NCBI GenBank assembly: GCA_024275095.1
Contig: JAJRZV010000088.1
Location: forward strand, 1 to 15,207
Direction: 5' to 3'
DNA length: 15,207 nt
DNA from: a bacterium
GTDB lineage: Bacteria > JAJRZV01
Both the position numbers and the translations under genes were made by a program. The notes under the pieces were generated by a model that was not told the origin of the DNA, did not search any database, and saw only the letters and a list, made by a program, of their open reading frames with translations. This document shows, one piece after another, positions 13,778 to 15,207 of this stretch (positions within the stretch are counted from its first letter, which is position 1; the number at the start of each line of letters is the position of its first letter).

Positions 13778-14413
13778 TCAGGAGATTTTCTCTACTTGGG
13801 AAAAATCGAGTTCCACAGGTGTACGGCGTCCAAATATACTTACTTCAACGGTGAGTCTCCCTCTTTCAGGATTAACACTCACCACTTTTCCGGTAAAATT
13901 CATAAATGGGCCCTCTATTACTCTCACTTCATCATCCACATCAATGGCCACACGGGGTTTGAGCTCACCATCCTCAATTTGCTGACGAAGTTTCTTTACA
14001 TCCTCTTCTGGTAAAGGAGTGGGACTTTGCTGGTTTCCCACAAAACCTGTGACACGTGGTGTCTTTCTTACCAGATGCCATGTGTCTTTGTTCATCTCCA
14101 TCTGAACGAGAATATACCCCGGGAAAAACTTCTGCTTTTTCTTTTTTTCCTGACCTTCTTTCTTGGGTTTTGTAGAAGGCTCCACTGTTTCTGAAGGAAT
14201 AAATATTTCACCAAAATACTTCTGTAACTTGTGTTTTTTGATACGCTGTTCAAGTGCAAGCTTTACATTTTCTTCATATCCCGAGTAAGTATGTACCACG
14301 TACCATTTCATACGTGAGATGTCTATCTTTTCTTTCTGGTCCTCATCACCTTTTGAAACACTGTTGTCAACCGATTGTTCATCTTCTGATGTTTTTTCTT
14401 TTTCCTCTACCAC
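13778..14413 (-). CDS. nusG: Transcription termination/antitermination factor NusG, with N-terminal extension
   Basis: NusG binds the RNA polymerase clamp, suppresses pausing, and through its KOW domain contacts Rho or ribosomal S10. The 211-residue product contains the NGN domain ([20 protein letters not shown] from residue 35, [18 protein letters not shown]) and the C-terminal KOW domain ([20 protein letters not shown]). The first 34 residues, rich in Glu, Asp, Lys and Ser, precede the usual NusG start. The GTG at 14411-14413 has a strong GGGAGG element 5 nt upstream and is chosen. The Met at residue 35 lacks any Shine-Dalgarno. The loop before KFFPGY is unusually Lys-rich ([13 protein letters not shown]). 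Follows secE by 18 nt, the widespread secE-nusG pair. Confidence 0.95.
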
Positions 14414-14431
14414 TTCTCCCTCCCAGGGAAC

Positions 14432-14626
14432 TCAGCCAAGGAGATGGCCAATTATAAGAGTATATAAGTAATCAAACAATCCCAGTAAAAAGGCAATTAT
14501 AAAAGTAAACACAATAACTACGCCAGTCGTAGCCATAACCTCTCGTCGCGTGGGCCAGGTCACCCTCTTTAATTCTGCCCTCGCGTCTTTCAAAAATTGC
14601 ACGACTTTTTTCAGAATTTCTTTCAT
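14432..14626 (-). CDS. secE: Preprotein translocase subunit SecE
   Basis: SecE is the essential small subunit that clamps SecY in the inner-membrane SecYEG channel. The 64-residue product is the short single-span form usual outside enterobacteria. It has an N-terminal amphipathic helix (KEILKKVVQFLKDARAELKR), the family signature RVTWPTRREVMATT (about 21-34), and one hydrophobic segment from about 35 to 60 (VVIVFTFIIAFLLGLFDYLY). The ATG at 14624-14626 is followed in frame upstream by CTG and then a stop (TAG), so no longer start exists. The Shine-Dalgarno is weak (GCGGGTAG region). It lies 161 nt downstream of tRNA-Trp and 18 nt before nusG; leader structure in that spacer may influence its translation. 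Confidence 0.95.
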   Translation of the reverse strand: MKEILKKVVQFLKDARAELKRVTWPTRREVMATTGVVIVFTFIIAFLLGLFDYLYTLIIGHLLG

Positions 14627-14696
14627 CAGCTACCCGCTTTTTATTTTGCTGCACCGTGCCATGTATATCACGTTCGCTCCGCTCACTTACCACCCT

Positions 14697-14724
14697 CCGG
14701 TGGTTGGGGGTTCAAATCCCCCCT
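14697..14724 (-). repeat. Inverted copy of the tRNA-Trp 3' half (antisense segment)
   Basis: The plus strand here begins CCGGTGGTTGGGGGTTCAAA and is identical for 24 contiguous nt, 27 of 28 overall, to the minus-strand tRNA-Trp segment at 14794-14821 (3' anticodon stem, variable loop, T-arm and part of the acceptor strand). The two copies are therefore an inverted repeat with 69 nt between them. In a minus-strand transcript covering both, they could form a 28-bp helix with one G-U pair that excludes the tRNA fold. Within the segment and its flank are two competing local hairpins: 14689-14704 (ACCACC, loop GGAG, GGTGGT in the transcript) and 14706-14722 (five G-C pairs around a T-loop-like sequence). 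Function is unknown. It could be a degenerate tRNA end, since a plus-strand class II tRNA 3' end would look similar. Confidence 0.85.
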
Positions 14725-14787
14725 TCCCAACAATCCTCCTCCCAGCATTATACGCTTCACATATAACATCAGCTTCTCTTCCCTTAT

Positions 14788-14861
14788 CAGGCCAGGAGGG
14801 ATTTGAACCCCCAACCACCGGTTTTGGAGACCGGCGCTCTGCCTGGTTGAGCTACTGGCCT
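14788..14861 (-). tRNA. tRNA-Trp (anticodon CCA)
   Basis: A 74-nt cloverleaf on the minus strand: acceptor AGGCCAG pairs with CTGGCCT (7/7), D-arm GCTC/GAGC, anticodon stem CCGGT/ACCGG around loop CTCCAAA (anticodon CCA at 14825-14827), 5-nt variable loop, and T-arm GGGGG/CCCTC (one G-U) around TTCAAAT. The discriminator base is G, as expected for bacterial tRNA-Trp, and the CCA end is not encoded. It sits 52 nt after rpmG and 161 nt before secE, a placement seen in many bacteria, so it is probably cut out of a tuf-rpmG-secE-nusG transcript by RNase P and a 3' endonuclease. Its 3' half is duplicated in inverted orientation downstream. Confidence 0.97.
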
Positions 14862-14913
14862 TTTTCTTCCACACCGTTTTATATTCTTCTCTCTATATTT
14901 CCTGTGTTTCGTA

Positions 14914-15063
14914 TTATTTTGTTTCTTTATGTACTGTGTGTCGTTTGCAAAAAGGACAATACTTTTTCAGCTCGAGCCTTCCCGTTGTAGTCTTTTTATT
15001 CTTCGTGGTGGAGTAGTTCCGCCTTCGACATTCAGTACATTCAAGAGTTACCTTCACACGCAT
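14914..15063 (-). CDS. rpmG: 50S ribosomal protein L33 (zinc-binding form)
   Basis: L33 is a small large-subunit protein near the E site. The 49-residue product starts [20 protein letters not shown] and ends [10 protein letters not shown]. It keeps both cysteine pairs (C9/C12 and C36/C39, as CTEC and CPFC), so it is the zinc-ribbon form rather than the zinc-independent paralogue that some bacteria induce under zinc limitation. Its ATG (15061-15063) lies 3 nt after the tuf stop codon, with GGAG 6 nt upstream inside the last tuf codons, implying translational coupling to tuf. Downstream 52 nt of A-rich sequence lead to tRNA-Trp. The gene order tuf-rpmG-tRNA-Trp-secE-nusG is common in bacteria. 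Confidence 0.97.
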
Positions 15064-15066
15064 GGC

Positions 15067-15207
15067 TTACTCCAGCACCTCCGTTACTACTCCAGCTCCA
15101 ACCGTACGCCCCCCCTCACGTATCGCAAACCGCATTCCCCTCTCCATCGCCACAGGATACATCAACTCAACCTCCATGTTCACATTATCACCAGGCATCA
15201 CCATCTC
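15067..15207 (-). CDS. tuf: Elongation factor Tu, C-terminal part (runs off right edge)
   Basis: Only the last 46 codons and the TAA (15067-15069) are in the window. They encode [20 protein letters not shown] and then the very conserved end [21 protein letters not shown], the domain III beta-barrel of EF-Tu. This is the tufB-type copy upstream of rpmG-secE-nusG, while the copy at the left edge is the tufA-type copy after fusA. Both point the same way. The gene is cut by the window edge, so its start, promoter and similarity to the other copy are not visible. Confidence 0.97.

Follow-up and report, generated by a model that had tools for sequence, protein, structure and literature searches.

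The repeats behind the E. coli tRNA-Tyr genes tyrT and tyrV have been known for decades as a single-operon oddity, and we know of no accepted origin for them. In these units the end of the tRNA-Tyr is followed, after 57-59 nt, by an antisense T-arm. Next come hairpins with GCA and GAA loops, a GAGCGAAGCGA core and, as a direct copy, the final 19 nt of the tRNA; the units stand in tandem with a period of 178 bp. In the E. coli structure that Rfam gives for this family (RtT, RF00391, rttR), the antisense segment is paired with the 3'-end copy downstream of it.

The bacterial genome described here has tRNA tails with the same order of parts, with GNA and GNAB hairpins and a GAGCGAAGCGA-type core. 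Six of its loci also have a copy of the tRNA 3' end, and tandem units occur in this genome too. The spacing agrees as well, the antisense T-arm beginning 63 nt behind the tRNA at tRNA-Trp and 57-59 nt behind it in RtT. There are differences: about 16 tRNA loci are involved, whereas one is known in E. coli, and the direct copy of the tRNA 3' end that closes the RtT unit is lacking at tRNA-Trp. We found no account of such tRNA tails in the literature.

The interval between tRNA-Trp and secE

The window, that is, the whole stretch of 15,207 nt that was analysed, corresponds to contig 53 in a bacterial genome assembly of 136 contigs and 2.45 Mb. The repeat family is described from this one genome, probably a metagenome-derived draft. 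The list of open reading frames gives the order rpmG, tRNA-Trp, secE and nusG, followed by ribosomal protein genes, and on this order the first-pass annotation was correct. The distance from tRNA-Trp to the first open reading frame has a median of 25 nt elsewhere, compared with 161 nt here. The features of the interval are listed in Table 1.

Table 1. Features of the tRNA-Trp tail in the window.
Feature	Position	Strand	Basis
tRNA-Trp(CCA), the gene that hosts the tail element	14788..14861	-	ARAGORN; Rfam tRNA, 68 bits
tRNA part with the antisense match (3' anticodon stem, variable loop, T-arm, beginning of the acceptor 3' strand)	14794..14821	-	inverted repeat, 27/28
Tail spacer from the tRNA 3' end to the antisense copy, 63 nt	14725..14787	-	
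Antisense copy of the tRNA-Trp T-arm region	14697..14724	-	own tRNA is best match among 41
Hairpin ACCACC-GGAG-GGTGGT, directly after the antisense T-arm	14689..14704	-	
Family core GTGAGCGGAGCGAAC...ATATACATGGCACG	14655..14686	-	models R1 and leave-one-out R2
secE, 161 nt downstream of the tRNA-Trp 3' end	14432..14626	-	ORF list

The antisense copy and the tRNA segment that it matches are inverted copies of each other at 27 of 28 positions and lie 69 nt apart. Their ungapped inverted-repeat score is 25, and the maximum in 1000 Markov resamples of the 161-nt spacer was 12, which bears out the earlier claim of an inverted copy of the tRNA-Trp 3' half. Taken alone, the antisense copy is a perfect T-arm-like hairpin (GGGGG-ATTTGAA-CCCCC). 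This hairpin and the one directly after it are the two small alternative hairpins that had been pointed out before, and both are present. The feature extends beyond the stretch first described, to approximately 14655, by way of GTGAGCGGAGCGAAC. A 15-mer of its family core has an exact match elsewhere only in the tail of tRNA-Arg(tct).

The single mismatch between the two arms becomes a U-G pair in the minus-strand transcript. Counting G-U pairs, 8 more bp between 14784-14791 and 14726-14733 lengthen the helix beyond the 3' end of tRNA-Trp, with spacer positions 14784-14787 and tRNA bases 14788-14791 on one side. On this folding model, homology or pairing at Trp reaches slightly beyond the tRNA end. 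The predicted fold has an energy of -102.4 kcal/mol (z -6.8), as against -71.5 kcal/mol with the cloverleaf forced. The proposed competition between an antisense helix and the cloverleaf holds on paper.

Other identities of the segment were tried and rejected. A missing or split class II tRNA was considered; the five Leu, four Ser and one Tyr tRNA genes are all present and intact, and the plus-strand half is therefore not needed as part of a tRNA. A Leu 3' half was considered because the 3' end of the segment is similar to Leu tRNAs from other genomes, yet the genome's own tRNA-Trp is by far the better fit. Rfam matches consisted of the tRNA itself and chance only. A 63-codon open reading frame at 14683-14874 of the window, minus strand, crosses tRNA-Trp and the antisense copy (...GRGDLNPQPPEGGK) and is most likely spurious. 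Among the tRNA matches of this genome, none corresponds to tRNA-Asn, tRNA-Ile(gat) or tRNA-Ala(tgc); perhaps this reflects rRNA operons and other parts absent from the assembly. Outside the tRNA list, GGGGGTTCGACTCCCCCCGCCTCCA (G000:C86:8830, minus strand) resembles the 3' end of a tmRNA.

A structured repeat downstream of about 16 tRNA genes

The antisense tRNA-Trp piece belongs to a structured repeat with copies just downstream of about 16 different tRNA genes. An antisense copy of the gene's own T-arm is found within 100 nt downstream of 16 of the 42 tRNA genes, and never upstream. The hosts are Trp, Tyr, Leu-caa, Leu-gag, Ser-gct, Ser-gga, Ser-tga, Ala-ggc, Val-gac, Glu-ttc, His, Phe, Arg-ccg, Arg-cct, Arg-tct and Gln-ttg; the matches towards the end of this list are weaker. 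With the threshold fixed at a score of at least 11, the copy is present downstream of 13 of 40 tRNAs in this genome and upstream of none (0/40), and none of 139 tRNAs from other genomes has it. The neighbouring tRNA ranks top among 41 in 12 of the 14 strongest cases. The offset from the tRNA end to the antisense T-arm is mostly 54-63 nt (63 nt for Trp). The matched tracts vary in length and in position within the tRNA, and nearly always they include the T-loop.

The antisense T-arm is followed by a short hairpin and then by GGCGAGCGGAGCGAGCATATAATG or a variant of it. The stem of this hairpin varies by locus, and in a small alignment its changes are paired; the loop is GTGA, GTTA, GGAG, GGA, GTA or GCCA. 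A hairpin with the loop type of the one at Trp stands at the same position in 13 of 16 tails. Hairpins of the GNA, GNNA and GNAB types closed by C-G, present in 13/16 tails, reach 0.69 per 100 nt in tails vs 0.06-0.07 elsewhere, and GCGNAGC is approximately 25 times commoner in tails (11 in 2.2 kb vs 88 in 445 kb). The direct copy of the tRNA 3' end seen at six loci starts in the T-loop and lies 185-237 nt downstream. Behind tRNA-His, the first 54 nt recur exactly after this copy, and a second unit is present at Ser-gct and Arg-tct.

With the family model R1, all genome-wide matches below E 0.01 lie in tRNA tails and on the tRNA strand. The model also recovers the second Ser-gct unit, on which it was not trained (E 0.0013). 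In a leave-one-out model (R2) made without the Trp copy, the Trp unit was the sole match in the window (E 1.4e-5), and the model built without Trp gave no match in 258 kb of other bacterial loci. When every tRNA was surveyed, the partial tRNA copies lying next to tRNAs were nearly all in the window's own genome. Among 386 genomes from about 260 families, a pattern search gave more than one match only in this genome, and the core had no exact match in viral contigs. No such copy was found at 72 further tRNA-Trp genes, which came from contigs with the nusG region or from tRNA-Trp similarity matches; the best inverted scores there were 5-9. Scattered genomic copies were rejected as well, the T-loop pattern matches away from tRNAs being chance and one tmRNA-like 3' end. 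The end of contig C59 and the start of contig C129 overlap inside the tail element of tRNA-Arg(cct), and the assembly therefore broke at the element. Several further contigs start or stop near tRNAs.

Relation to RtT and proposed origin of the tails

The Rfam RtT model, which gave four matches in E. coli as a positive control, had no match in positions 14400-15207 of the window even at E 5, and none at the gathering threshold in ten tail loci of this genome. In the other direction, models R1 and R2 had no match at E. coli tyrT. Since neither set of models finds the other, the link to RtT rests on layout and hairpin type. By this comparison the tail elements are built like RtT, and membership of the Rfam RtT family is not shown.

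We think it fairly probable that the feature is a dispersed, structured, RtT-like repeat of tRNA tails whose T-arm part has been recopied from the adjacent tRNA. Each unit consists of a spacer of about 60 nt and the antisense T-arm of the host, with a short hairpin or two and a GAGCGGAGCGA core; some loci also carry the tRNA 3' end as a direct copy and start a second unit. The adjacent tRNA would have served as the source of the antisense T-arm, probably more than once, and template switching from one arm of the quasi-palindrome to the other is an example of how this could happen. Such repeated recopying is suggested by the tracts, whose lengths around the T-loop vary. The near-identity of the two arms at Trp would arise without selection for a switch, because the antisense T-arm was copied from its neighbour. 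The unit is probably transcribed as a tRNA trailer. Behind an already folded tRNA, the tail would make hairpins of its own, and with a direct copy it would make a minihelix ending in the tRNA 3' end, like the Rfam RtT structure. At tRNA-Trp, the unit would extend the leader between the tRNA and secE, and any effect on secE-nusG may be a side effect.

Other explanations, and the use of a comparable set

Part of these observations would be accounted for if mobile, non-autonomous DNA elements used the T-loop as their point of entry into tRNA genes. The inverted T-loop pair would then fold as a single strand into an attachment site, and the direct 3'-end copy would be the displaced site. CTX phage attP and integron attC are folded single-strand attachment sites, and the tails share with them two inverted sites approximately 60-90 nt apart that are able to fold together. 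In several loci both ends of the core break at the T-loop, the copies are specific to their own tRNA, direct 3'-end copies occur, two contigs (C59/C129) break within the element, and the hairpin loops are of a kind that we take to be stable DNA-type loops. However, the site here is a tRNA T-arm, no recombinase is known for it, and no sign of movement was seen. Judged by their length and gene neighbourhood, the two PF00589 genes of the genome are XerC/XerD-like, and the genome gave no phage-type integrase. There is no larger gene-bearing element, no copy was found off tRNAs, and there is no empty site for comparison. Elements placed in tRNA genes by tyrosine integrases likewise share the T-loop break and the direct tRNA 3'-end copy (six loci here); in contrast to them, the tails are gene-less units of about 200 nt with an internal inverted T-arm, and at Trp no direct repeat was found. 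We regard entry of mobile elements as unlikely. A gene-less mobile class that spreads by single-strand recombination at the T-loop and rewrites the inverted T-arm for each host, with tyrT as a relic, we hold to be quite unlikely.

The genome has three RAYT transposases with their own, different repeats. The REP sequences of RAYT, which are short palindromic repeats, are thus also present here: the repeat TTCGGGGTCTGGTCTCAACATTTGACATT, found downstream of tRNA-Leu tag, cag and caa, is the one that flanks the RAYT (Y1) transposase genes. The RAYT REP repeat GGGGTCTGGTCTCAA is unrelated to the tail core. An origin of the tails from RAYT was rejected, the tail core being absent beside all three RAYT genes.

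The first-pass annotation had proposed a switch specific to tRNA-Trp. As a rival to the tail-element reading, this would mean that the 28-bp helix of tRNA and antisense copy forms in competition with the cloverleaf and adjusts tRNA-Trp maturation or secE-nusG expression; the helix could also be an RNase III site. secE is nearby, and the predicted helix is strong, approximately 31 kcal/mol better than folded tRNA plus tail; its mismatch and its 8-bp extension use G-U pairs that are valid only in the transcribed strand. The interaction predicted between tRNA and tail is -26 kcal/mol for Trp, -22 kcal/mol for Tyr and -24 kcal/mol for Leu-caa, but close to zero at Ser-gga, Ser-tga, Leu-gag and Arg-ccg, and on these predictions pairing with the tRNA is thus not a property common to the family. 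Selection for pairing across the family was also rejected: mismatches at Ala, Ser, Arg-cct and Leu-gag disrupt pairs, and the G-U pattern of Trp is therefore not general. In addition, similar antisense copies lie behind about 16 tRNA genes here, the 72 other tRNA-Trp genes lack one, and the spacer search found no terminator or promoter signal; in particular, there was no terminator hairpin with a U-run before secE, as a leader attenuator would have. The antisense part would also be made about 63 nt after the tRNA, which may have folded by then. A switch or processing site private to tRNA-Trp is hence very improbable.

Inverted duplications fixed by chance at single tRNAs, with no family, would fit the varying length and position of the tracts, but they are contradicted by the core, hairpin and spacing common to many tRNAs and by the recovery of the Trp unit with the leave-one-out model, and we give them hardly any credence. 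The neutral inverted duplication that had been named as the competing explanation came closer than the switch, but the copy is part of a structured repeat family and not a random duplication.

For the preferred reading, an RtT-like repeat recopied from its neighbour, the finding carries a warning: lone antisense tRNA pieces should not be taken as private switches. With about 16 tRNA tails that have their own antisense T-arms, the E. coli oddity becomes a comparable set, and such a set makes its origin, the copying from the adjacent tRNA and a possible function testable.
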